From: Flavobacteriia bacterium
GTDB lineage: Bacteria; Bacteroidota; Bacteroidia; Flavobacteriales_D; Crocinitomicaceae
Assembly (NCBI GenBank): GCA_016178305.1
Contig: JACOTM010000070.1
Span: forward strand, 1-64,000
Direction of reading: 5' to 3'
Length of the DNA: 64,000 nucleotides
The notes beneath the pieces were generated by a model, which saw only the letters and a list, made by a program, of their open reading frames with translations, did no database searches and was not told where the DNA came from. This document shows positions 3,792 to 20,163 of the stretch, in pieces (position 1 is the stretch's first letter; the number at the start of each line of letters is the position of its first letter). The translations under genes were made by a program, and so were the position numbers.

Positions 3792-6700
3792 ATGAAACAA
3801 CTAAATTTAATCGTATTCCTATTTTCGTTAATAGCTTTCACGAAAATAAATGCCCAAAAAATAGATACCGTTTCGTTGAATCAAAAAGTTTATTACGAAT
3901 ATCCATTTAAACAAAATTTACGTCCTTTTGATAGTTATTTCTTTATTTTTTCAATTAAACAATTGAAATTATTAGTTCTTGAATATTCAAAGAAAAAAGC
4001 GAATTCAACAGAAGAGCCAGCGCTCAATACGAAACAATCACGATTAGCAAAACATATTTATCGAAAACAAATACGAAAATATAAGCGCATATTTAAGAAA
4101 GAAGGTAAATTTTTTGACTCTCAACTGAAAGAAGCAATCATTAAAAATCCATACCCATTTTTGGAATCGTCTTATTCTTTTGAGAAAGATATTACGCCTT
4201 GTCTTGATAAAATTCCAGATGGGGAATATGTGCAGTTTTTTGAAGAATTTCCAATAATAATGCCGAATGGAACGTGTAAATTTGAAAATAATCGAGTTGC
4301 GGGAATCTTTCATATTAAAAACAATATGTTAGATGGAGAAGCTGTTTGGTTTAATTTCAAAGGAGACACTTTAAAACATGGAAAATATAACAATGGACTA
4401 AAAGAAGGTTTATGGAAAAATGAATTTCGAAAAGTAAAGCAAAATTTAAAAGAAGAAGGGAAAACTAGTTATGTTAAAAATGGTTATCCTTTAATTGATA
4501 CAACTATTGAAATAATTACTTATAAAAATGGAATGCGTAATGGGTTTTATAGTTTTAATAATGGTTGCAGATTTCCAACTTTAGAAGGGAATTATACAAA
4601 TAATGAGGAAACGGAAACATGGATAGAAAGGAAACCAGAACATTATATTGATGAAAATTATATTCGCCAAACTAAAAAAGAAAATAAAGTCATCACGGCT
4701 GAATATACACTTGATAAAAGTAAAACGGTTATTAAACAACCACTTGTAAGGTATATGCTGATTTCAGGACAATATTTATATCTTGAAGGGTATAATTTTG
4801 AGTCTAATTTTGAGCCCATAAATGTTACGAAAAATTTATATGAAATTCAACTAACTAAAATTGCAACTGAAACGAATTACGAAGATTCAGAAGGTGAATT
4901 TTCAGAAGATGTTTACATGGATGAAAATATAGATGAGGAATATCCTGAAGATGAATATTCAGAAGAAGAATATGAAATTGAAGAAGAAAATTTATTAGAG
5001 GAAGATTTCAATTATCAAAAATTTATTTTTGATCCAATATCAAAAAAATATCTCAAAAGAGGAAAAGTGATTGATAGCTTGGGTCTTGTTTTCAATTACA
5101 AAGGAATATATGAAAAACATTATCCAAATGGACAATTAATGTTTCGATATGAATTTAAAGAAGGAAAATTATTAAAAGAAGATACTCTTTTTTGGGACAA
5201 TGGAAAACCGTATGATGTCATAAATTTCCTTCCAGATTCTAATCAATATCTTCAAACAATTTTTGATTACGATGGCAAAATCTATCATGAAATTCTTTTT
5301 GATTCTTTAGGAGATTTTTTACGAATGAAATTTCAGCCTCAGTTGTATAAAACTTTCGAAAAAGAGGGGTTAAGCGTACGTGAATATCCTAACCGAGAAT
5401 TTTTTGAATATGATAAAATGGATTCTATTTCTTATTTTACGGAAAAAGATTCTGTTATTTTATGGAAATCTTGGAGCACTGTTGATACTTCCAAATTATA
5501 CGCAAGAATTTATTATCCCCAAACACGGACTTTAAAAAATTATGGTTATGCTGTCAATGGCCGAGTAAATTTAGAACAAGAAGCTGTTTTTAGTGAACAA
5601 TTTAATAATTGGACAGGATATTTGAATTTGTCCTTCAATGAATTTACGAATAAAACGACTCAAACAGCTAGTTATTATAACAATTACAACATGGTTATAG
5701 ATACAATTCCTATTCGAAATGTGAATGATTATGATAATAATTTTGATATTGTGTCAGATGAAATTTTATACCATCATAGTATTCCTTATTCAGGAAAAGT
5801 AAATGTTAAATTTAATTCAAAAACACCTGTTTTCAACTCAAAAAAAGGAATCAATTTTCAAATACCAAGGGAGTTATTTTTCCGCGAGAATTTAGAAAAA
5901 GATTATAACAATTATAAAAAATACGGGAAGTCTAAATACAGTTATTTGTATGCTTTAATGGATATTAGTGAAATAGAATCTGCAAATTTTAGTAGCATTC
6001 AATATTTGTTTTTTGGATTTTTAGGTGAATTTATTTCTCAACCGAATCTTGATGACGAATATTATGATGATTCAGAAGAACTCGATGATGAACGAAAAGA
6101 GCCCAAAGAAAAAAATCTGCCTGTTTTTTCAAAAAATCTGATCGGAAAATTCAAAAATGGGAAACCTGAGGGATTGTGGATTATCAAAGATCAATTTGGA
6201 AATACAATGTATGAAATTCCGTTTTTAAATGGTGAGATAGATGGTGTTTTAAAAATGTATTCCGATATTCTTCCCTTAAAAGATGATTATTATGTAGAAG
6301 AAAGTTGGGAAGAAACACCCAAACATAAAAAACATTATTTAGAATCAATAACAACGTATAAAAAAGGGTTACGCCAAGGAGAAGCATTGAGATACAATTG
6401 GAAAGGGGAGCTGATTCAAAAAGAAAATTATAAAGATGATTTGCTAAATGGTCCGGCAATCGAACGTAATAATCTAGCATATACGTCTAGTAATTACGAA
6501 GAAAATGCGTTAGATGGATATGTTGAAACGTATTTAACCATGAAAGATAGAGATACCACATTGCTTTATAGTTTAAATTTCCAAAATGGAATGCTGCAAG
6601 GCGAATCTAAGTCTTTTCATTTGAATGGTAAAATATCAAAAAGAGGCTTTTTCTTGAATGGGCAGCCAATTGATGATTATGAAGCGTTTGATTCTTTAGG

Positions 6701-7631
6701 AATGAAATACCATTATGTAAAATTTCAGTATTCTTTTCCAATTGAAGAAAAAATTTGGGAAGAAAGTGAACTGAGTGTCCGTTATTTATTTGATTGGAAA
6801 GATTCGATTTATTTCAGACCATCAGACATTACATCTTCTCAATCTTTAGACAAAGTTATGGCTGAACATGGAATTGGAATGGAGTATTTCAATAGACCAT
6901 ATTATGGCAGACCAAGTTTAGTTAGTAAAAGTAAGGTTAAATATCAATTAACAAAATACTACCCCAATGATACCATTGCGCGGGATGGATTTATGAAATT
7001 TGGTAAAAAAATAGGTCCTTGGGTTTTTTACAATTATTACGGACAATTGCTTTATAAAGTGAATTATTTCGATACCTTAATAAAACTCAATGATTCAATT
7101 TCATTTATTTCATCTGGAATTTATTCAGAGTACGATACATTAGGAAATATTATTTCTAAAAGTTACATCGTTGAAAAATATGAAAAATACGATTGTTCCC
7201 ATAGCGATCATTATGAAATCAGACAATTTTATACTTTTTGGGAAAAAGAAAATAGCAAACAAATTAATGGCTATGTAAAACATCATTACGATAATGGAAC
7301 GTTGCAAAGTGAAGGACAAATGAAAGATGGCCTACCTGTTGGGATTTGGAAATTTTATGACCCTTATGGCAAGTTGAATCAAGTAGGTTTGTATATCAAT
7401 GGAAAACGAGATGGAAGATGGCTCGGAGGAGATTTATCTAAAACCAAATATTTGGGTGATATTTGCTTAAATCCGAATTTACCTGATTTAGAAGAAACAA
7501 TAAAAATGCGTGAAAAACAATTGGATATTACCATTACGAATTATCATTTAGGAAAAGCAATGAACAAAGAATTTTACGATGTAGATTGGTCAGAAATCGA
7601 AAAAGAAGACGTAATTGAGGAAGGAGAATAA
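3792..7631 (+). CDS. Very large secreted YwqK/MORN-like repeat protein (paralogue 1)
   Basis: Signal peptide; repeated YxNGxLxxxGxxxxGxxxGxWxxYxxxG units; acidic low-complexity segment. Confidence 0.8.
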   Translation: MKQLNLIVFLFSLIAFTKINAQKIDTVSLNQKVYYEYPFKQNLRPFDSYFFIFSIKQLKLLVLEYSKKKANSTEEPALNTKQSRLAKHIYRKQIRKYKRIFKKEGKFFDSQLKEAIIKNPYPFLESSYSFEKDITPCLDKIPDGEYVQFFEEFPIIMPNGTCKFENNRVAGIFHIKNNMLDGEAVWFNFKGDTLKHGKYNNGLKEGLWKNEFRKVKQNLKEEGKTSYVKNGYPLIDTTIEIITYKNGMRNGFYSFNNGCRFPTLEGNYTNNEETETWIERKPEHYIDENYIRQTKKENKVITAEYTLDKSKTVIKQPLVRYMLISGQYLYLEGYNFESNFEPINVTKNLYEIQLTKIATETNYEDSEGEFSEDVYMDENIDEEYPEDEYSEEEYEIEEENLLEEDFNYQKFIFDPISKKYLKRGKVIDSLGLVFNYKGIYEKHYPNGQLMFRYEFKEGKLLKEDTLFWDNGKPYDVINFLPDSNQYLQTIFDYDGKIYHEILFDSLGDFLRMKFQPQLYKTFEKEGLSVREYPNREFFEYDKMDSISYFTEKDSVILWKSWSTVDTSKLYARIYYPQTRTLKNYGYAVNGRVNLEQEAVFSEQFNNWTGYLNLSFNEFTNKTTQTASYYNNYNMVIDTIPIRNVNDYDNNFDIVSDEILYHHSIPYSGKVNVKFNSKTPVFNSKKGINFQIPRELFFRENLEKDYNNYKKYGKSKYSYLYALMDISEIESANFSSIQYLFFGFLGEFISQPNLDDEYYDDSEELDDERKEPKEKNLPVFSKNLIGKFKNGKPEGLWIIKDQFGNTMYEIPFLNGEIDGVLKMYSDILPLKDDYYVEESWEETPKHKKHYLESITTYKKGLRQGEALRYNWKGELIQKENYKDDLLNGPAIERNNLAYTSSNYEENALDGYVETYLTMKDRDTTLLYSLNFQNGMLQGESKSFHLNGKISKRGFFLNGQPIDDYEAFDSLGMKYHYVKFQYSFPIEEKIWEESELSVRYLFDWKDSIYFRPSDITSSQSLDKVMAEHGIGMEYFNRPYYGRPSLVSKSKVKYQLTKYYPNDTIARDGFMKFGKKIGPWVFYNYYGQLLYKVNYFDTLIKLNDSISFISSGIYSEYDTLGNIISKSYIVEKYEKYDCSHSDHYEIRQFYTFWEKENSKQINGYVKHHYDNGTLQSEGQMKDGLPVGIWKFYDPYGKLNQVGLYINGKRDGRWLGGDLSKTKYLGDICLNPNLPDLEETIKMREKQLDITITNYHLGKAMNKEFYDVDWSEIEKEDVIEEGE

Positions 7632-7763
7632 TAAGTAACTATCTAAATTTAAAGAGTGATTTTGAATTATTATCTCCTTAGTTTTTAATTTGTTACAATT
7701 TTTACTTATATTTATCTTGAGCGAAGAGTTTTTTATGCTAAAAATTAACTCTATTTACAACAA

Positions 7764-8294
7764 ATGAAATTTAGAATTGAAGAAAAGATTCATGAGCTTA
7801 TTGATGGCTATTTTACCTTAATTATTAAATATTCTGTAGTTTTTTGTCTCGCTTGGATGCTTGGTATCTTGATTGTTTATACCTATCCTTGTATGGTTTG
7901 GAATGGCGACAAATATCCCCCGGCTTTGATTTTTGTCAATAATTATGATGTCGTAAATTGGATTCTTGCAATTGCTGCAATCTTGTACTATTCCAAACGA
8001 AAATTCAAACATTATCAATTAGGTTTAATTATTGAAATGAATTTTGAAAACAATAATTTTATTCAGCTTGAAATAATCAATACTCTAAATGGTAAATTAC
8101 ATGGTATAACACTTACGAAAGAAGATTTTAAGTTAATTAAAGAAGATAAAAACAGTAGTTTTTTTGGCAAACAAAGTGTTTATCATTTTTATAGAAAAGG
8201 GAAACTATTAACGAATTTAAACATAGAAATGACTGCTTGGAAGAGACATTCGGATGTAAAGAATATGCTTGCTAAATTAGATAGTTTTCTATAA
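7764..8294 (+). CDS. Hypothetical membrane protein (two predicted TM segments)
   Basis: ORF with hydrophobic segments near the N-terminus, between paralogues 1 and 2. Confidence 0.6.
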   Translation: MKFRIEEKIHELIDGYFTLIIKYSVVFCLAWMLGILIVYTYPCMVWNGDKYPPALIFVNNYDVVNWILAIAAILYYSKRKFKHYQLGLIIEMNFENNNFIQLEIINTLNGKLHGITLTKEDFKLIKEDKNSSFFGKQSVYHFYRKGKLLTNLNIEMTAWKRHSDVKNMLAKLDSFL

Positions 8295-8376
8295 CTTTAC
8301 TGGAATTAAAATATTTTGAATAGTATTGCTAATCGTTTTTTATACTTTAAGAAAGTTGTCATATAATCTATCATCT

Positions 8377-11300
8377 GTGAATTATAAAAATTATTTAATC
8401 TTTTTTATACTATTTTTTCAGTTATCTCCTTCATTCGCCCAAAAAGTGGATACGGTAACTTACAACCAAGAAAAGTATTTTGTTTATCCTTATAAAAAAG
8501 AATTTTCACCCCATGACGATTTATTATATGCTTTAAAAAAAAGAAAGTTTGTAAAATCATTTTATAAATTAACAGTTGGAGATCATAACTTCTCAAAAAC
8601 AAAAATAGTAAATATAAAGCACCATTTAAGGTGCGATAAGAGACTTTATTCTCAATTTTTTAGCACAAGATATAGTGGGTTTAGATATAAAAAAGCAATT
8701 CGAAAAAATTACGATCCTTTTTTAAATGTTACATATAATTTGTTTTTTGATTTAACACCTAATTTAGACACCTTACCAGACGGTATTTATATTCAATATT
8801 TTAATGATTTCATTTGTGGAGATTCAAAAGGAAAAATTCATATAGTAAAAAATAAGGTAGCTGGTATTTTTCAAATACAAAATAATTTATTGAATGGAAA
8901 AGCAATGTGGTTCAATATTCATGGAGACACACTGAAAAAAGGTAATTTTAAAAATGGATTAAAAGAAGGGAAATGGTATTTAGAAACACATAAAATTTCA
9001 TATAATTTTAGTCAACGTGAACGGTATGAAATTATTAAAAATAACGTTTATAAAATTGATACAACGATTGAGAAAATAACATATTTCAATGGATCTAAAA
9101 ATGGAAGTTATAGCTGTACGAAAATAGTAAATATCAATTCTGAAAATGTTTTTTATCAAGAAGGGTTTTATCGAAATGAGAAGAGTGTAGGAACTTGGAT
9201 TGAAAAGGAAAGTAAAAGATCTTATAGTAAAACATCAAATCAGATTCATGTCTTGTTTGATAAATACAATTTGACTTTAACAAAAAAATATGTCATCAAT
9301 GAATCTGATTCAATTTCAAAAAATTATTTGATTCGACCAAATTTAATTATTCCTAGTTTTTCTTATGATACAAATTATAATTTTTTTCCACATATCAGGT
9401 TTCCAAATTCTTTAAGACAATACTATGAGATAAATTATTCCACAAAAGAATGGAATGAAATTGGACGAGATTATGGATGTGGTTATGCAGATGTAACTAT
9501 TCAAAAATGGATGCAAAATGAAATTATTGATAAAAATGAAAATTCATTCAAGCATTTCAGTTCCATCGTAGATAAGTATGGAATCAAAATAAAATTTAAA
9601 GATGATTTAGAAAATTATTATCCCAATGGACAATTAATGTATAAAATACATTTTAACTCAGATAATACAATTCAAGAAGATACTATTTTCTGGGATAATG
9701 GAAAACCATTCGACATACTAACAAATAATAAAGATTATAATAATTATCGTCGTGAAATATATGATTATGATGGTAAAATTTATTATGATGTTATTTATAA
9801 TTATAAAGGAGAAGTACTTCAAATAAAGCATTCTCCTTTTCAAGAACGTACGTTATTAATTGACAATGTAATTGGAAAATATGAGTATGATTATATTCAT
9901 TATAATTGTTTGGTAGATTTTGATTTATTTCAAAAAGATTCAGTATTAATTTCAAAAAACTGGTTTTTACATGATTCTACTGCCTCATTTGTCAAATATT
10001 TTTTGAAAAATGAGCAAAAATTATTTCAAATCAATTATTCCATTACAGGTAAAATTATTGATAAAAAAGAACTGTTTTTTGATATAGCTAACTCTCATAT
10101 TATTTTGACAGAGTTAATTTTTTTCGATGATTTTTGTTTCGAGCAAAAAAGAATTTTAGAAAAAGACTCTATGAATATTTTAACAATTCTAAATGATGAA
10201 AATTTTTCTGATGAATTTATTTTCAAAAACCCAATAAGTAGAAAACTTTATAAAAACAATGAGTTATTTACAGGTGAAATAGAAATGCATTTTGGTAAAA
10301 GATATAAAAAAATAGAGAAAGAGAATAAAATTATTTATCGTTTTCCGCTACACATCAATGAAATAAAACATTTTAAAAAATATTCTCAAAATTCTCAGTA
10401 TCGTAAAAAATTATTGATAGACTATAACCAGTCTTTTTTGTTAGAAAATATAGAAATGCATGAGGCGATTAATAGACTTTTTTCACCTAATTTTTATTTA
10501 ATTGAAATAGGTAATTATTATGATCGAAAAGGAAATCAAAAATTTAAATTTTTAAATGGAGAAGCAACTGGAAAATGGCAAATTAAAACGATTCGTAAAG
10601 AGAAATATATTATTGATTATCGAAACAATCAAATAAATGGACAAGTGATTTATAAGTTAAATAAGAACCTATTTTTTTATAAAACAATTGCAGTTGAAAA
10701 TTATAAAAACGATACATTGAATGGTGAAAATTGGAAAGTATTTTTAAAAGAGAAAATAAAATCATTTTATATAAACGGTCAAAAAGAAGGAGATGAAATC
10801 GAGGTATTTAAAAATTATGTGTTTAAAAAAACTTATAAAAATGATTTATTAAATGGTCCAATGACTGTTTATGAAAAAAATGAGAAAACAAAAGATTCTA
10901 TTTTAAGATATAATGCATTTTTTGAAAATGGAGTTTTGAGTGGTGATGCGATATTTTTAATGCCAGACCAAACCATAAAATTTGAACTCAAAAATCATGT
11001 TTTTAAACAGTACGATACAAATCACCTATTACTAAATGAAGTAATTCTTGATGATAATAGGGTTAAAGAAGAAAATCATTTTTTGAATGGTTTTCTTGAT
11101 GTTAAATATCAGTTTGATTTGAAAGATTTTATTTTCTTTAGGCCTTCTGTTTTTTATGATATTGATTTCTTTTCAATTATTGAGGGTTCATGGAAATCAT
11201 TAGAAGAAAATTATTTATACGGAACAGATTATGAGTTTGATAATAATTTAGTAAATAAAAATTTTCATAATTATAAGATGATTAAATATTATCCAAATAA

Positions 11301-11931
11301 TAATATTGCAAGAGAAGGAGATATTGTTTCGAAAAATAAAGTAGGATTGTGGAAGTATTACGCCTATGAAGGGAAGAAATTATATGAAATTCTTTTTCAG
11401 GATAGTTTAGTTATTATAAATGATTCAATTAAGTTTAATTCATCAGGGATTTTATATCTTTTTGATACAAAAGATGAAATTCTGAGTAAAAGTTTTATAA
11501 TTGAAAATTCTGAAAAATTTGATTGTGCAAATAATGATTATTATGCAATTCGACAATATCACACATTTTGGGAACAAACTGGAAGTAATCGAATCAATGG
11601 ATATGTGAAAAATTATTATGATAATGGAGTAATTCAAAGTGAAGGAATTATGAAAGATGGACTTCCTAGTGGCGTTTGGAAATATTATGACCCTTATGGA
11701 AAATTAAATCAAGTAGGAACGTATATTTTTGGGAAAAAAGAAGGAAGATGGATTACAGGAGATTTAGGGAAAATAAAATACTTAGGTGATATTTGTCTTA
11801 ATCCTAATTTACCAGACTTAGAAAAAATAATTGCTGAAAAAATGAATAACTTAGATATACAAGTTGCTGTATATTTTCATGGAATAGTGTTAAATGCCGC
11901 TAATTACGAATTAAATAATATAAAAAATTAA
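8377..11931 (+). CDS. Very large secreted YwqK/MORN-like repeat protein (paralogue 2)
   Basis: ORF 8326-11931. A GTG at 8377 gives a compact signal peptide MNYKNYLIFFILFFQLSPSFAQ; start uncertain. Conserved C-terminal block KYLGDICLNPNLPDLE shared with paralogue 1. Confidence 0.78.
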   Translation: MNYKNYLIFFILFFQLSPSFAQKVDTVTYNQEKYFVYPYKKEFSPHDDLLYALKKRKFVKSFYKLTVGDHNFSKTKIVNIKHHLRCDKRLYSQFFSTRYSGFRYKKAIRKNYDPFLNVTYNLFFDLTPNLDTLPDGIYIQYFNDFICGDSKGKIHIVKNKVAGIFQIQNNLLNGKAMWFNIHGDTLKKGNFKNGLKEGKWYLETHKISYNFSQRERYEIIKNNVYKIDTTIEKITYFNGSKNGSYSCTKIVNINSENVFYQEGFYRNEKSVGTWIEKESKRSYSKTSNQIHVLFDKYNLTLTKKYVINESDSISKNYLIRPNLIIPSFSYDTNYNFFPHIRFPNSLRQYYEINYSTKEWNEIGRDYGCGYADVTIQKWMQNEIIDKNENSFKHFSSIVDKYGIKIKFKDDLENYYPNGQLMYKIHFNSDNTIQEDTIFWDNGKPFDILTNNKDYNNYRREIYDYDGKIYYDVIYNYKGEVLQIKHSPFQERTLLIDNVIGKYEYDYIHYNCLVDFDLFQKDSVLISKNWFLHDSTASFVKYFLKNEQKLFQINYSITGKIIDKKELFFDIANSHIILTELIFFDDFCFEQKRILEKDSMNILTILNDENFSDEFIFKNPISRKLYKNNELFTGEIEMHFGKRYKKIEKENKIIYRFPLHINEIKHFKKYSQNSQYRKKLLIDYNQSFLLENIEMHEAINRLFSPNFYLIEIGNYYDRKGNQKFKFLNGEATGKWQIKTIRKEKYIIDYRNNQINGQVIYKLNKNLFFYKTIAVENYKNDTLNGENWKVFLKEKIKSFYINGQKEGDEIEVFKNYVFKKTYKNDLLNGPMTVYEKNEKTKDSILRYNAFFENGVLSGDAIFLMPDQTIKFELKNHVFKQYDTNHLLLNEVILDDNRVKEENHFLNGFLDVKYQFDLKDFIFFRPSVFYDIDFFSIIEGSWKSLEENYLYGTDYEFDNNLVNKNFHNYKMIKYYPNNNIAREGDIVSKNKVGLWKYYAYEGKKLYEILFQDSLVIINDSIKFNSSGILYLFDTKDEILSKSFIIENSEKFDCANNDYYAIRQYHTFWEQTGSNRINGYVKNYYDNGVIQSEGIMKDGLPSGVWKYYDPYGKLNQVGTYIFGKKEGRWITGDLGKIKYLGDICLNPNLPDLEKIIAEKMNNLDIQVAVYFHGIVLNAANYELNNIKN
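8425..8494 (+). repeat. 70-bp perfect direct repeat, copy A (second copy at 11996-12065)
   Basis: Identical nucleotides encoding SPSFAQKVDTVTYNQEKYFVYPY in paralogues 2 and 3. Confidence 0.95.
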
Positions 11932-11938
11932 TTAAAAC

Positions 11939-14900
11939 ATGTTAATATCAATATTGAAATTTAAAGTATTACTGATTTTAATTGTCTTGAATATTTCTCC
12001 TTCATTCGCCCAAAAAGTGGATACGGTAACTTACAACCAAGAAAAGTATTTTGTTTATCCTTATACCAAGTCAATTGAGGTAAATAAACTGATTTATCGT
12101 GGAATGAAGAAAAATCAGTTTGTGAAAGCTTTTATTCAATGTGAACATTTGAAAAGTAAATTTGATTTAAAAGATGAAATTCTGGTTAAGGAGTATAAAC
12201 GAAAAGCAAAAAAACTTCGAAACAGGTATATCAAAAAAAATTATTATGAATATGGCTGTGGACGTGGTCGCAAAAAAGAAAGTAAAATAAAGAAATTTTT
12301 TAAAATTTATCATAAAGGATTTCGTTTTAAAAATGCTGTTCGAAAAAATCATTTTGCTTTTTATGATCCCAATTTTTCATTTGACACAGAAATAACGCCA
12401 TGTTTAGATCAAATTCCTGATGGGAAATATATTCAGTACTTTGAACCTTTTTTGATCGGAGATAAACATGGAAATGTACAACTCGTAAATAAACGTGTTG
12501 CAACTATTTTTTATATTAAAAATAATTTTTTAGAAGGTAATTTGATTTGTTTAAATATTGATGGAGATACGCTGATGAAGGGTGTTTATAAAACGGGAAT
12601 TAAAGAAGGTGAATGGAAATTAACACAATTGCTCAACAAAATTTATGATTCAAAAATCGAAAATAAATACCTGATAAAACATAACACGTTAAAGCTTGAT
12701 ACGAGTTTTGTTACACAGAATTATTTGCACGATATTTTACAGGGAGCGTATGAAGAAAAAAGTACACGTTTAGTTGATATTCGAGGTTTTTATACAAATG
12801 GTCAAAAAAGTGGTACTTGGATTGAAAAAGCAGCAGTATCTTTTTACGATACGGTTAATCATATATATTTAAAAGATTATACCCGCCAAATTACAAGACT
12901 AGTTTGTACATTTGATTCTCTCAATCATCCTGTAAAATTTTACCCTATTCGTTACCATTCAATGTCATCTACTATGTTTAATCAATATAGCAATGATGAT
13001 ACTTATGATTTATTTAATTATTACAATATTTTATCTAGTAACTTACAATTTTCTTATAGACTAAAAAATAATAGCGAATATGAATATAAAATTAAAAATG
13101 CTTATTATGATATTGCAACTAAACAGCAAATAAGTTACATAAATTTTAGGGACAGTTTTAAATTAATCCCTAAATATACAGGAGTTTATAAAAAATATTA
13201 CCCCAATGGACAATTGTTTCATCAATGTAACTTTATAGATGGATTAAATACGCTAGAAGATACTGTTTTTTGGGATAATGGAAAACCGTTTGATGTTGTA
13301 AGCTATTTGCCAGAAAATCAAATATATGAAAGGAAAATATTTTACAAGGACGGTAGTGTAAGTGAGATATATCACTACACATCGAAAGGAGAATTTGTAA
13401 AAAAAGTATATGATGGATATTATAATGAAATAGTAATCATTGATAAATTGAAAGCAGTAAGTCGAAAAAATACGGCCTTTTACGAATATAAATGGGAGGG
13501 AGGAATTAACCAAAATCTGGACACTGTAATTTTAGAAAAAAAGTGGTCTAAAAAAGAAAAGAAAATGCTTTTTTTTAAATACTATTTACCGCGAGAACGT
13601 ACATTAATATGTCAATATTTTCAGGAAGATGGGTTTGAATATCAAAAAATTAAATATTCATTTAACGATACTTATACGATTTATAAAAAAAGTCAAATGC
13701 TTGTTTTAGATGATTTTAAATTATTAACCGATTCTGAAGGTAAATTTTTTAATTATAATGCTATTAATTTATCAAAGGATAATATTTCATTGGAAGATAG
13801 ACTTGCTAAGAAAGTAGCCTCTCGAGGTGTAGAGAATATTTTATATGTCAATACGCTTTTTTCAGAGGAAGTTTTAGAAAAAACAAGATTAAAAAATGAC
13901 AGCTTATACAATGGTCCTATTGAAATTACATTTAGAGGAAAAAAATTTAAGAAAATTAATGCTTACAAGTATATTTTACCCTTTGGAAGCATGGATAATT
14001 ACACCAATCAAACACAGCATTTCAACGAGGTAGATTGTTCTAAAAGTTTTTCCTTTTTCTGCTCTTTTTTGATAGATTATACCAGAGTTAGTAAACCAAA
14101 TGACAATTTCCCTTATTTTAACAAAGTCAGAGGGGCATTTAAAAATGGTAATCCAGAAGGTATTTGGGAAATATTTGATAATAAAGGAAATTTAATTGCA
14201 AAATTGAATTTTAAAGATGGAAAATTAGACGGACCAATTTATAAATACGAATTTGATAAAAAATCTTTTCCTTATTTGAAGCGGAACACTCTTCCTAAAA
14301 CACATTCTTTCAAGTATTACTATTACATGTTGTATGAGAAAAATTATACAAATGGTAAACTTGAAGGAGGTACAACAAATTACAATATAAATGGGTTTCC
14401 AGTATTCAACGTAAGTTACCATAATGGATTGAAACAAGGAGAGTATTTTGAGAAATTTGGGACTACACGACTCCTAGCACATTATCAAAATGATACCTTG
14501 CAAGGAAAACGAAATTTATTTTATTTGAATTCAAATAAAGATTCGATTTATTTATTAAAATCAAATTTTTTAAAAGGAAAATTGGATGGAGAAGCATTGT
14601 TGTATCACGCTAATGGAAAAATAGCAAAACAAAGTTACTTTAAAGATGGAATCATAGAAGGTAAATATCAAGCTTTTGATACACTTGGAAATTTATACCA
14701 TGAAATATTAACCTTGAATAAAAAATTAATTTCTGAAAAAAGATGGAAAAATGGAACTTTAATTGAAATTAATAATTTTAAAGAAAATGAAAGTCAGGTC
14801 TATTTGGTGAAAAAATTTATTACAGAACATGTTGAATATTTATTGGAAGATTATTTTGATGAAACAGACACATCAGTATCTGTAGAAAAAAATTTGCTTG

Positions 14901-15622
14901 ATTATGTGAAGATAAACTATTATTCAAATGGGAAAATTTCAAGTCAAGGAAGTTATCATTTAGGAGAAAAATTTGGTTTGTGGAATTATTTTAATTTGGA
15001 TGGAAAATTAGTTTACTCCATTGACCACTATTTAAAATCAGAGAAAAAAGAATTAGAAATAAAAGAGTCTATTTTTACTCAAATTGAAGGAATTTTAACG
15101 GAATATGATGCAAACGGCGAAAAATTATGTGTAAAAGCAATCATAAATTCTTATGCACATTATGATTGTCCGGACAATTTTTATTACAATGTTTATCCGT
15201 ATTATTTTACGAGCGATTCAATTAATAAACCTTACCTAAATAGTATATTTTCAAGTTATTATGTAAATGGAGTGAAGCAAAGTGAAGGAGAAATAGTTGA
15301 TGGTTTACCAAATGGTTATTGGTTTTTTTATGATCCTTATGGTAAATTGTATGAATATGGTAAATATATTTCTGGCCTTAAACAAGGAAGATGGCTTCAA
15401 GGTGATATCGGTAAAATAAAATATTTGGGAAATATTTGTTTTAAAGATGAAATGGATTACAAAGATTTTGAAGCTGAAGTTGGTATGAAGTTAGAATTTA
15501 AATCTATTTTTTACACAAATGGAACGGCTATAAAAAGTAAATTTTATAAATTGGATTGGGAAAAACAGATTCTTATAGAGGAGGATTTAATGTCTCGGGG
15601 TGGAGGAACACCTAGTTTTTAA
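11939..15622 (+). CDS. Very large secreted YwqK/MORN-like repeat protein (paralogue 3)
   Basis: Signal peptide ending ISPSFAQ; same repeat type and C-terminal block (GRWLQGDIGKIKYLGNICF). Confidence 0.8.
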   Translation: MLISILKFKVLLILIVLNISPSFAQKVDTVTYNQEKYFVYPYTKSIEVNKLIYRGMKKNQFVKAFIQCEHLKSKFDLKDEILVKEYKRKAKKLRNRYIKKNYYEYGCGRGRKKESKIKKFFKIYHKGFRFKNAVRKNHFAFYDPNFSFDTEITPCLDQIPDGKYIQYFEPFLIGDKHGNVQLVNKRVATIFYIKNNFLEGNLICLNIDGDTLMKGVYKTGIKEGEWKLTQLLNKIYDSKIENKYLIKHNTLKLDTSFVTQNYLHDILQGAYEEKSTRLVDIRGFYTNGQKSGTWIEKAAVSFYDTVNHIYLKDYTRQITRLVCTFDSLNHPVKFYPIRYHSMSSTMFNQYSNDDTYDLFNYYNILSSNLQFSYRLKNNSEYEYKIKNAYYDIATKQQISYINFRDSFKLIPKYTGVYKKYYPNGQLFHQCNFIDGLNTLEDTVFWDNGKPFDVVSYLPENQIYERKIFYKDGSVSEIYHYTSKGEFVKKVYDGYYNEIVIIDKLKAVSRKNTAFYEYKWEGGINQNLDTVILEKKWSKKEKKMLFFKYYLPRERTLICQYFQEDGFEYQKIKYSFNDTYTIYKKSQMLVLDDFKLLTDSEGKFFNYNAINLSKDNISLEDRLAKKVASRGVENILYVNTLFSEEVLEKTRLKNDSLYNGPIEITFRGKKFKKINAYKYILPFGSMDNYTNQTQHFNEVDCSKSFSFFCSFLIDYTRVSKPNDNFPYFNKVRGAFKNGNPEGIWEIFDNKGNLIAKLNFKDGKLDGPIYKYEFDKKSFPYLKRNTLPKTHSFKYYYYMLYEKNYTNGKLEGGTTNYNINGFPVFNVSYHNGLKQGEYFEKFGTTRLLAHYQNDTLQGKRNLFYLNSNKDSIYLLKSNFLKGKLDGEALLYHANGKIAKQSYFKDGIIEGKYQAFDTLGNLYHEILTLNKKLISEKRWKNGTLIEINNFKENESQVYLVKKFITEHVEYLLEDYFDETDTSVSVEKNLLDYVKINYYSNGKISSQGSYHLGEKFGLWNYFNLDGKLVYSIDHYLKSEKKELEIKESIFTQIEGILTEYDANGEKLCVKAIINSYAHYDCPDNFYYNVYPYYFTSDSINKPYLNSIFSSYYVNGVKQSEGEIVDGLPNGYWFFYDPYGKLYEYGKYISGLKQGRWLQGDIGKIKYLGNICFKDEMDYKDFEAEVGMKLEFKSIFYTNGTAIKSKFYKLDWEKQILIEEDLMSRGGGTPSF
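11996..12065 (+). repeat. 70-bp perfect direct repeat, copy B (first copy at 8425-8494)
   Basis: Identical to 8425-8494 by direct reading. Confidence 0.95.
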
Positions 15623-15722: not shown

Positions 15723-15754
15723 CAGGCAACATATTTCTTTCTCATGCATATTAG
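15723..15754 (+). promoter_or_regulatory. Putative ECF sigma-dependent promoter of the TSP3-like gene
   Basis: CAGGCAACATATTTCTTTCTCATGCATATTAG; 24/32 ungapped match to 18023-18054 upstream of the ECF sigma gene. Confidence 0.55.
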
Positions 15755-15798
15755 TAATTGAGAAGCTTCTATAATTATTAATTTTTAAAAAATGAATT

Positions 15799-16752
15799 AT
15801 GAAAAAGAAATATTTGGTGTTAACTAGTTTAGCAACTTTTTTGATGACTATCAATAGTTATGCTCAAGATGGTAATACAGCTTCAGGTGGTTTTGCTGAT
15901 GCGAATGGAAATGGCGTTCCTGATTTATTTGAAACAGATACGGATGGAGATGGAATACCAGATGTTTTGGATAATGATGCGAATGGTGACGGTACAGTAG
16001 ATTATATCTTTACTGATGCCAACAATAATGGAATACCAGATGAATATGAAGGTGATTCTGATGGTGACGGGAATCCTGATTTTGTTTTTGATTACGTTGA
16101 TAATAATAATGATGGAGTTCCTGACGATTGGGGCGATGGTACTTTTGGAACAGATGCTAATAATAATGGTATTCCAGATGAATGGGAAGGTGCTACTGAT
16201 TCAACGTTGGTAGATGGAACTACTGATTGGAGTATTGATTCTAATGGTGATGGAATTCCTGATATTTATGAAAATGGATATACAACTGATACGCTTCCTG
16301 GAGATGTGATTTTTGAAGGTTTTACAGATGCAAATGGAAATGGATATCCTGACGAATGGGAAGCTGATGCAGATGGTGACGGAATTCCTGATTATGAAGA
16401 GTCTATTGGAGATACTAATAATAATGGGATTCCAGATTTCTTAGAAATTGATACAGATGGTGATGGAATTCCTGATATTTTTGAAAATAATGAAGAGAAT
16501 AGCGGTATGATTTGTTATCCAAACAACATAGAAAATTTTGTTAATGTTCAGTGCAGCGTTGTAACAGATGGAATTGGAAGTATTGAAATTTATGATATGA
16601 AAACAGGACTTTTAATAAATACGTCATCGGTTGAATTAGTAAAAGGTGTAAATACAAAACAAATAGACACGACTAATTTTGAAAAAGGTTATTACATTGT
16701 TTGTTTAAATGATGGAACAAAGATAATTAAGAAAACGAAAATTGTCAAATAA
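15799..16752 (+). CDS. Thrombospondin type 3-like Ca2+-binding repeat protein with T9SS C-terminal sorting domain
   Basis: Many D(A/T)NxNGxPDxxE / DxDGDGIPD repeats; signal peptide; C-terminal sorting-type domain ending GYYIVCLNDGTKIIKKTKIVK. Confidence 0.85.
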   Translation: MKKKYLVLTSLATFLMTINSYAQDGNTASGGFADANGNGVPDLFETDTDGDGIPDVLDNDANGDGTVDYIFTDANNNGIPDEYEGDSDGDGNPDFVFDYVDNNNDGVPDDWGDGTFGTDANNNGIPDEWEGATDSTLVDGTTDWSIDSNGDGIPDIYENGYTTDTLPGDVIFEGFTDANGNGYPDEWEADADGDGIPDYEESIGDTNNNGIPDFLEIDTDGDGIPDIFENNEENSGMICYPNNIENFVNVQCSVVTDGIGSIEIYDMKTGLLINTSSVELVKGVNTKQIDTTNFEKGYYIVCLNDGTKIIKKTKIVK

Positions 16753-16760
16753 ATGAATTT

Positions 16761-16798
16761 AGAAGTCCGAAAGGTGTATTAAACTTTCGGACTTCTTT
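16761..16798 (+). terminator. Rho-independent terminator-like hairpin
   Basis: Perfect 13-bp stem AGAAGTCCGAAAG / CTTTCGGACTTCT. Confidence 0.8.
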
Positions 16799-16853
16799 AT
16801 AAAATGGAGACTATCCCATAAAGTGGATAAATATTTAAAATTCAAAAACATTT

Positions 16854-16932
16854 CTTCTTAATCAACTCTTTTTGATAGACTCAAGTCATCTCGCTAAACC
16901 TACGGGAAACGCCTTATTCTTTCAAGTTTAAT
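16854..16932. repeat. Dispersed intergenic repeat, copy 1 (related copy at 55744-55823)
   Basis: Shared core AGACTCAAGTCATC-n-CGCTAAA-n-CTA with further flanking similarity. Confidence 0.6.
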
Positions 16933-17125
16933 CAAAATCTGAGCGTAAAATTTAATCGAACACCTCTCTTTGATAACGGTATGTTCTTGAATTTTGCTTT
17001 GACACACAGTTAGTGATGCCAAATAATCTTTTGACCTAAACAAGCAACTATTGGTTTTTGCAATTGTATCTTCTTTGTAAATAATTTAATGTTAACAGTT
17101 TTTTTATAACAAAATTTTAAAAAAT

Positions 17126-17920
17126 ATGATAAGAAAATCTTTAAAATTTTTCCAGACAGCTGAACGTGTCTCTTCAAGTGATCCATCAGATTCATTTGTA
17201 TTCCAACGTTCTTTATTAGCTTATGTTTATGCTTCTCAACAAATTCAGGGTCATGTTTTAGAAATAGGAACGGGGAGTGGCTATGGGATTCATAATATTA
17301 CTGAAAAAGCGACTCATTTTGTAACAATTGATAAAAATTCAATTGATAAATCATTATTTTCAGGGAAAAAGAATTGTAGTTTTATTCAAATGAAAGTGCC
17401 ACCATTCAAAGGTATAAATTCAAATTCTTTTGATTATATTATTTGTTTTCAAGTTTTAGAGCATATTAAAAAAGATCAATTTTTTATTCAAGAAATAAAA
17501 AGAGTATTAAAACCAAATGGAATAATTATTCTAACAACTCCAAATAAAAAGATGAGTTTAAGTAGAAATCCATGGCACATCCGAGAATATACATGTAACG
17601 AATTAACAGAATTAATCAATCGTGAGCTTCAAGTGGTTCAGTCTTTAGGAGTATTTGGCAATGATAGAATTACATCTTATTATGAGAAAAATAAAAAAGC
17701 GGTCAATAAATATAGAAAGTATGATGTATTCAATTTAGAACATCGTTTGCCTAGATGGTTACTTCAAAAGCCTTATGACATTTTAAATCGTATTAATAGG
17801 AAACAGCTTTTAAAGAAAAATAGATCTATTCTAGAGCAAATATCTTTAGATGATTATTATATAGATAATGCAAATGATAATTGTTATGACTTGTTGTATT
17901 TCGCAAAAAAATCAAGTTAA
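17126..17920 (+). CDS. Class I SAM-dependent methyltransferase
   Basis: Motif I VLEIGTGSGYGIHNI; FDYIICFQVLEHIKKDQFFIQEIKRVLKPNGIIILTTPN. Confidence 0.85.
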   Translation: MIRKSLKFFQTAERVSSSDPSDSFVFQRSLLAYVYASQQIQGHVLEIGTGSGYGIHNITEKATHFVTIDKNSIDKSLFSGKKNCSFIQMKVPPFKGINSNSFDYIICFQVLEHIKKDQFFIQEIKRVLKPNGIIILTTPNKKMSLSRNPWHIREYTCNELTELINRELQVVQSLGVFGNDRITSYYEKNKKAVNKYRKYDVFNLEHRLPRWLLQKPYDILNRINRKQLLKKNRSILEQISLDDYYIDNANDNCYDLLYFAKKSS

Positions 17921-17965
17921 AGAAAGACTTTTTAATCGAACACAGGTTTTTAATTCAATATTTTC

Positions 17966-18018
17966 AAAATTTCATTTATATCCATCACATTGAATCGATA
18001 TAAATGAAATTTTTTGTT
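17966..18018 (+). terminator. Strong terminator-like hairpin
   Basis: 17-bp perfect stem AAAATTTCATTTATATC (17966-17982) / GATATAAATGAAATTTT (17997-18013), then T-rich. Confidence 0.8.
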
Positions 18019-18022
18019 TTTA

Positions 18023-18054
18023 CAGGCAACATTTTTCAAACTCAATCATAATAC
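18023..18054 (+). promoter_or_regulatory. Putative ECF sigma autoregulatory promoter
   Basis: CAGGCAACATTTTTCAAACTCAATCATAATAC: GGCAAC and CATA boxes separated by 16 bp, matching 15723-15754. Confidence 0.55.
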
Positions 18055-18197
18055 CTATAAACCAATTCAAATTTAAAATTGTTTATGAGATTTTTTCAGT
18101 TAAAAGTCAAAGATTAATTAAAAAAATGATTCAATAAAGCCATTGGGTTTTTATAAATTATTGAAGTATATTATTTTCATTTCTAAGTATTTATAAA

Positions 18198-18758
18198 TTG
18201 TTTGGAAGACAAAAGACATATCATGATAAAAAATCAGAAATTTCAAAAGAGAATTTTGAAAATATTTTCAATACCTATAAATCATTTGTTTTAGCTATAG
18301 CAATGAGATATTTGAGATGCAAAGATGATGCAAATGATGTTGTTCAAGAAACTTTTTTGAATGTTTATCTGAATTATTCTAAATATGACACAGAAAAACC
18401 AATTATTCCATGGATTAAAAAAATCGCAATAAATACTTCTTTGCTTTACATTCGGAAAAATTATAGACTCCAATTATTTGAAAATGAGTTTGATGTCATA
18501 CCAGAAGTACATCCATTTTCAAATGATTTTGATGAAATAATTTTTCCTGTAGAACAAATGATTTCAATACTTCAAAATTTGCCGGATGGATATAGAGTTG
18601 TTTTTAGTTTATATGCAATTGAAGGTTTAAATCACAAAGAAATTGCAGAATACTTAGAAATTAGTGAATCAACCTCCCGAACTCAATTATTCAAAGCTAG
18701 AAAAATGCTAAAAAAAATAGTAGAAACAAAAATGATTTTATTCCATGAAAGAGCATAA
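18198..18758 (+). CDS. RNA polymerase ECF-type sigma-70 factor
   Basis: CKDDANDVVQETFLNVYLNYSKYD...PWIKKIAINTSLLYIRKN; region 4 LNHKEIAEYLEISESTSRTQLFKARKMLKK. TTG start. Confidence 0.88.
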   Translation: MFGRQKTYHDKKSEISKENFENIFNTYKSFVLAIAMRYLRCKDDANDVVQETFLNVYLNYSKYDTEKPIIPWIKKIAINTSLLYIRKNYRLQLFENEFDVIPEVHPFSNDFDEIIFPVEQMISILQNLPDGYRVVFSLYAIEGLNHKEIAEYLEISESTSRTQLFKARKMLKKIVETKMILFHERA

Positions 18759-20163
18759 TAATATCGACAATTTATTTCATAACAGTTTGAAAGATTATCT
18801 TCCTGATGCTTCGCATTTAGATTTTTCTCAAATGAATGAATTATTAAATTCCAAACTTTCTAAACAAATGACAATTGATAAAACAGAAGTTTTTCATTCT
18901 CATACAAATTTTGGAAATAAAATGTTTTTTTGGAAATTAGTAGGTTTAGTTTCGGTAATAACTACGATTACTATAATTTTTTCAGAAAAACCAGCGTCAG
19001 ATAAATGCTATGGGAAAAATATAGAACAGAATGATTATAAGAAAGAAAATATTAAACCATCAAAAATGAACTTAGAGTCATTGCCAATTGAAAAACAAAT
19101 TAATATAGCAAAAAGTGTAGCCAAAACTTTAATTCATAATGAAATTAAATCAAAGGTAAGTCAATCTAAAAATTTACCCCCAAGATTTAATAATAATATT
19201 TTAACATTTGCAAACACACAGGAGAAAAACACAGAAAGAAAAATAGAATTAAGCGATTCAACACTATGTTTTGAAGCAATTGCTAGTACTAATTTTACTT
19301 TAAAATATTTGAAAATCAATCAAATGGTGTTAGAATCGTTAACGAAATTTCGAGTGGATTCGTCATTAATGTTAGGAATTAATTCAGATTTTAAAATTTT
19401 AAGTAGTTCTAAATCAATAGCTAATATTCCAACACATCAAATTAAATTTAATTTTGGAATATCCAAAGTTCCAGTTACCCAAAAAGAAATTTTAAATTAT
19501 CCAAATTATACGAACAACCCATTTAATTTTTTTACAAACATGAAAATGGATTCCATTCAAATTAAACAAGAAAATCAATATTCTTTGGAATACCAGCATA
19601 TTTATAAAACGAATTTAATTATCGGTTTTGGATTAAGCTATTGCAATGGAGGATGGAGCAGTTCTAGTAAAGGAATTATTTATACTCTAGCTGATTATAA
19701 TGGTGATGGCATAGCAGATGTTGATGCCAATGGAAATTATATTGAATTGCAAAACACGATTCAATACGGAACTACGAAAAGTACTTTTAGATCTATTGGT
19801 TCAAACTTACATTTAGGATATTGCTTTAATAAGAATAAACAATGGATGTTAAACGCATTTTGTGGCATAAATAATGCGCAAGTAATAGCAAAAAACACAT
19901 TTAAATATCAAGATACTTCACAAAAAGACATGGTAAGTAAGTATTCAAAATTTATTATTTCTCCTTTCATTGGATTTGATGTGGTCTATCGTAAAAGTAA
20001 TTTTGGATTTAGCATTGGAGGATTGCTTTCTCAAAGAAATACAATTGCAACATTAATAAAGGCAACTGAATTTTATAACAATGCTTCATTTGGAGGAACT
20101 GTAGGAATATTTTACTACTTACCAGAAAATTTTCTAGACTTAAAGAAAGATTCAAAAGATTAA
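18745..20163 (+). CDS. Membrane protein with single N-terminal TM and outer-membrane-barrel-like C-terminal domain; putative anti-sigma factor
   Basis: Overlaps the sigma gene by 14 nt; TM segment FFWKLVGLVSVITTITIIFS; C-terminal part with NLHLGYCFNKNKQW.../GFDVVYRKSNFGFSIGGLL; contains DYNGDGIADVDANGNY. Confidence 0.65.
   Translation: MKEHNNIDNLFHNSLKDYLPDASHLDFSQMNELLNSKLSKQMTIDKTEVFHSHTNFGNKMFFWKLVGLVSVITTITIIFSEKPASDKCYGKNIEQNDYKKENIKPSKMNLESLPIEKQINIAKSVAKTLIHNEIKSKVSQSKNLPPRFNNNILTFANTQEKNTERKIELSDSTLCFEAIASTNFTLKYLKINQMVLESLTKFRVDSSLMLGINSDFKILSSSKSIANIPTHQIKFNFGISKVPVTQKEILNYPNYTNNPFNFFTNMKMDSIQIKQENQYSLEYQHIYKTNLIIGFGLSYCNGGWSSSSKGIIYTLADYNGDGIADVDANGNYIELQNTIQYGTTKSTFRSIGSNLHLGYCFNKNKQWMLNAFCGINNAQVIAKNTFKYQDTSQKDMVSKYSKFIISPFIGFDVVYRKSNFGFSIGGLLSQRNTIATLIKATEFYNNASFGGTVGIFYYLPENFLDLKKDSKD

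Follow-up and report, generated by a model that had tools for sequence, protein, structure and literature searches.

A probable self-activating ECF sigma factor/Dma-like pair with a very small T9SS/TSP3 regulon in a freshwater Bacteroidota bacterium

A freshwater Bacteroidota bacterium carries what is probably a self-activating pair of an ECF sigma factor and a Dma-like protein, with very few genes in its T9SS/TSP3 regulon. The window (the whole 64,000-nt stretch of DNA analyzed) corresponds to contig C82 of genome G000 (3.6 Mb, 124 contigs), and contains the sigma gene, an overlapping partner gene and a gene for a secreted protein with TSP3-type calcium repeats (Table 1). Taken as a whole, the following explanation is considered likely: the sigma factor recognizes a shared promoter element, drives the pair and the TSP3 gene, and is restrained and released by its Dma-like partner.

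Table 1. Features of the sigma/partner region, in window coordinates.
Feature	Position	Strand	Basis or detail
Predicted ECF promoter of TSP3 gene	15723..15754	+	CAGGCAAC (-35), N16, CATATTAG (-10)
Secreted TSP3-repeat protein, 317 aa, T9SS type A C-terminal sorting domain	15799..16752	+	Profile matches
Predicted autoregulatory ECF promoter	18023..18054	+	CAGGCAAC, N16, CATAATAC
ECF sigma factor, 186 aa, TTG start	18198..18758	+	Sigma70_r2 2.5e-14, Sigma70_r4_2 6.3e-15
Dma-like candidate anti-sigma	18745..20163	+	Helices 7-46, TM helix 58-79, disordered 80-224, eight-stranded barrel 231-459 (AlphaFold)
Codons for DYNGDGIADVDANG (residues 317-330)	19693..19734	+	Loop between strands 291-315 and 335-362, inferred outward-facing (AlphaFold)

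Results

Genes of the window

All three ORFs of the original prediction were re-found. The TSP3 gene product matched PF02412 at 27.3 bits (cut-off 25), PF18962 at 32.2 (27) and TIGR04183 at 28.9 (23). As both the TSP3 repeats and the sorting domain exceed curated cut-offs, the product was classed as T9SS type A cargo with TSP3 repeats, and its start is signal-peptide-like (judged by eye). The sigma product has sigma regions 2 and 4 only, as expected of an ECF sigma factor, and its nearest named relative was found in a Fluviicola MAG. The TTG start is also present in the orthologous ORFs, and the sigma and partner genes overlap by 14 nt. Elsewhere in the window, three large ORFs (3792-15622, 1201-1279 aa) gave MORN_2 matches, above cut-off in the third only. 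An Rfam search of the window gave no match.

Two similar sites, rare in the genome

The site before the TSP3 gene and the site before the sigma gene are identical at 24 of 32 nucleotides. GGCAAC (15725-15730 and 18025-18030) is followed after a 16-nt spacer by CATA (15747-15750 and 18047-18050) in both, and every element of the site pair as originally described was recovered, from coordinates and identity to spacer length. When the window was searched with the earlier pattern (up to 3 mismatches), these two sites were the only matches, and 100 shuffles gave none. A genome-wide scan with that pattern, which had been proposed as a check, returned at the same threshold two sites only, both in the window.

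Exact searches of the whole 3.6-Mb genome for AGGCAAC-N16-CATAWWA also gave 2 matches only, at the TSP3 and sigma genes. The shorter AGGCAAC-N16-CATA gave 3 genomic matches and 0 control matches; the third genomic match lies within a histidine-kinase-like ORF and was set aside. At 2 mismatches the longer pattern matched 111 times in the genome vs. 142 times for the reversed control, which is background level, so a weaker regulon is not visible and only the exact class stands out. The likeness of the two sites could in principle be chance, or mark operators of an unrelated regulator, but the absence of shuffle matches, together with the phylogenetic footprint and the tracking of the sigma factor by the sites described below, makes this very improbable.

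Sites at sigma orthologs and across the family

The closest relatives of the sigma factor (58-60% identity) were found in two genomes, G091 and G098 (locus L005 and G098 were treated as one genome), and the three sigma factors form a clade with support of 98/99. Both orthologs have CAGGCAAC-N16-CATAtWAG upstream, at -270 and -259, with diverged spacers; the GGCAAC-N16-CATA element is kept at the sigma orthologs of these two further genomes. The pattern came from the two window sites and was then refined on the orthologs, so none of these sites tests it independently.

The control set comprised 240 family genomes, searched for exact AGGCAAC-N16-CATAWWA. Of the 25 matches, the three sigma carriers account for 2, 3 and 3, and the remaining 237 genomes for 17. 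Six of the 8 carrier matches precede genes, and the other 2 represent a coding-region site common to G091 and G098. None of the 17 non-carrier matches was upstream of a gene, with 16 falling within ORFs (at least 100 aa) and the last having no downstream gene. At least 2 sites were present in only 4/240 genomes, 3 of them sigma carriers (1.8e-6), a figure to be read with G000 not an independent case, since its own two sites defined the pattern, and with G091 and G098 counted as little more than one observation, since they are mutually close (CotH proteins 93% identical). The coding-region site (AGGCAAC-N16-CATAATA, L048 and L082) lies within an ORF on the opposite strand, and its conservation may reflect coding constraint. 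This site and a further one at L044, also within an ORF, were set aside.

Paralogous sigma/partner pairs

Paralogous sigma genes (~40-50% identity) with a similar partner were found across the family. Such a second ECF/Dma-like pair was seen at L093 (G000:C24:90000-100000), L012, L013 and L051-L075, often after a small lipoprotein gene, with GGCAAC- or AGCAAC-type upstream elements and GTAAYTA-like -10s at 17-18 nt in most of those scanned. Among 23 paralogs scanned upstream, most had CAGGCAAC or a close variant and, after 17-18 nt, GTAAYTA or a sequence near to it such as GTATTTA. For two of them no site was listed, and at L069 GGCAAC was present but not a -10 of this type. In the window itself, AAGCAACTATTGGTTTTTGCAATTGTATCTT (17042-17073) lies at -84 of a methyltransferase gene (17126) and is 2 mismatches from the paralog-class promoter.

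It was considered whether the window sites belong to the paralogous C24 ECF sigma factor, or to several ECFs with a common GGCAAC -35, since most paralog upstream elements carry CAGGCAAC or a one-base variant and the classes have similar recognition helices in region 4. Assignment to the paralogs is nevertheless unlikely, as their sites mostly have a GTAAYTA-type -10 and spacers of 17-18 nt, and in genomes that have the paralog but lack the window sigma factor no gene is preceded by an exact CATAWWA site.

Predicted T9SS/TSP3 targets in relatives

In G091 and G098, a further site lies before a CotH/lamin-tail/TSP3/T9SS type B gene, and PorP/SprF comes next. G098 has an extra site, with CATAACA, before a WG-repeat gene and then a T9SS type B gene. 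TSP3_bac matches were limited to 1 ORF in G098, 2 in G091 and 2 in G000, to which PF02412 adds 2, 1 and 4 ORFs, respectively; the CotH target is the sole TSP3_bac gene of one relative and one of two in the other. Because TSP3 genes are this rare (three to six ORFs per genome), it is informative, and unlikely to be coincidence, that TSP3 T9SS genes recur as targets. The window TSP3 gene and the CotH gene are not orthologs, and no site was found upstream of the CotH-TSP3 gene of G000 itself.

CotH orthologs were present in 19/21 genomes searched. Upstream of those in the same genus as G098 but without a sigma ortholog, the exact site was found in 0/12 scanned, with one 2-mismatch match. At L176 (the CotH ortholog of G095, a genome where a sigma ortholog was not found), TAGGCAACTTATTGCGAAAAATGAAGTATTATTG lies at -37 with 2 mismatches to both promoter classes, a level reached by 0.3-0.5% of simulated upstreams. 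From these scans, CotH genes appear to lack the promoter where the sigma factor is absent, with L176 as one weak exception. Paralog-class promoter matches (1-2 mismatches) were seen at the CotH gene in L178 (G000), L180 (G009) and L181 (G005), and the CotH gene of G004 gave no such match. Sequence comparison suggests that the CotH target may change hands between sigma pairs.

The original prediction held that the sigma factor drives itself, its partner and the TSP3 gene. The comparisons favor it: the putative promoter is found again at the sigma orthologs and before another T9SS TSP3 gene, and it tracks the sigma factor. For autoregulation and for control of the TSP3 gene the comparative support is good, though it falls short of proof.

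The partner protein

The partner product could be placed in no Pfam or NCBIfam family, a PDB sequence profile gave weak matches only, and no Pfam match to a FecR domain was obtained up to E 0.1. A homolog was found in L005 (E 8e-25). Structural modeling had been suggested for this protein, described beforehand as an anti-sigma-like partner with a TM segment and a barrel-like C-terminus, and AlphaFold gave a TM helix and an eight-stranded barrel in agreement. Core strands were mostly at pLDDT 88-97, the N-terminal helices of the partner models were of low confidence, and a Foldseek search matched OmpA (9fzd, E 6.8e-9). The model of an orthologous partner has the same layout, but a short loop between the matching strands. 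A TM helix, a long disordered tether and a C-terminal outer-membrane barrel, the Dma-type layout, are thus seen in the models of both proteins, and the window partner is encoded beside a sigma factor. It is probably Dma-like by layout and a candidate anti-sigma, with sigma binding predicted. Surface sensing by the partner is plausible, judging from the modeled architecture.

Candidate signals

A calcium-sensing circuit had also been raised, from the DYNGDGIADVDANG segment of the partner. The segment is present, its DxNxDGxxD motif would face outward in the modeled loop, and among 118 ORFs (window and selected loci) the partner is the only bearer of the motif besides large TSP3-repeat proteins. 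When seven partners were compared, however, the motif was found in the window protein only (0/2 orthologs, 0/4 paralogs searched). With the loop missing in both orthologs, calcium sensing lacks comparative support; a conserved calcium sensor was rejected, and sensing of calcium by the pair through this TSP3-like barrel loop is improbable. A shade less probable again is that sensor and cargo read one ligand, as might be supposed from an outer-membrane anti-sigma and its secreted target carrying the same calcium motif.

Alternatively, the partner may answer barrel assembly or T9SS cargo flux and not a ligand, with the TSP3 protein as output or secretion reporter. Conservation of the barrel and overall layout but not of the loop is consistent with this, as are the targets in two relatives, which are T9SS cargo with PorP/SprF, and the effect of the P. 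gingivalis CTD protein PorA on PorXY-SigP signaling (PMC7712824). Loss of Bacteroides Dma2, on the other hand, alters vesiculation and PUL expression (PMC13088901), and assembly or flux is put forward tentatively, as a serious possibility somewhat short of an even chance.

Discussion

In the proposed circuit, the sigma factor would recognize CAGGCAAC-N16-CATAWWA and transcribe its own operon (sigma and partner) and the TSP3 gene. The cytoplasmic N-terminus of the partner is predicted to hold the sigma factor, one helix would cross the inner membrane, the disordered tether would span the periplasm, and the OmpA-like barrel would sit in the outer membrane. Some event there would presumably free the sigma factor, so that the pair activates itself by positive feedback and more T9SS-exported surface protein is made. 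If true, the Dma-like sigma/anti-sigma layout would be found in T9SS bacteria as well, and with a defined promoter and a very small predicted regulon, two reporters would suffice to test what signal such proteins respond to. A literature search joining TSP3, T9SS and sigma factor found nothing.

Dma was first described in a PNAS 2024 paper, as cited in PMC12596196. As in Bacteroides Dma (PMC13088901), the sigma gene is beside that of a partner with an N-terminal domain, TM helix, disordered tether and C-terminal barrel, a layout as in Dma2. The likeness seen here is one of layout, and the pair differs in belonging to Flavobacteriales and in its predicted target, a T9SS TSP3 protein vs. vesiculation or PUL genes. 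PorXY-SigP of Porphyromonas gingivalis similarly ties an ECF sigma factor to T9SS genes (PMC4800418, PMC7712824), but SigP is switched on through a two-component system and its targets are T9SS machinery genes, whereas here the partner is an adjacent membrane protein and the predicted targets are cargo genes. FecIR-type cell-surface signaling shares an ECF sigma factor, a membrane-linked regulator and outer-membrane input; unlike in FecIR, no FecR domain was found in the partner here, and both membrane domains are predicted to lie in a single protein.
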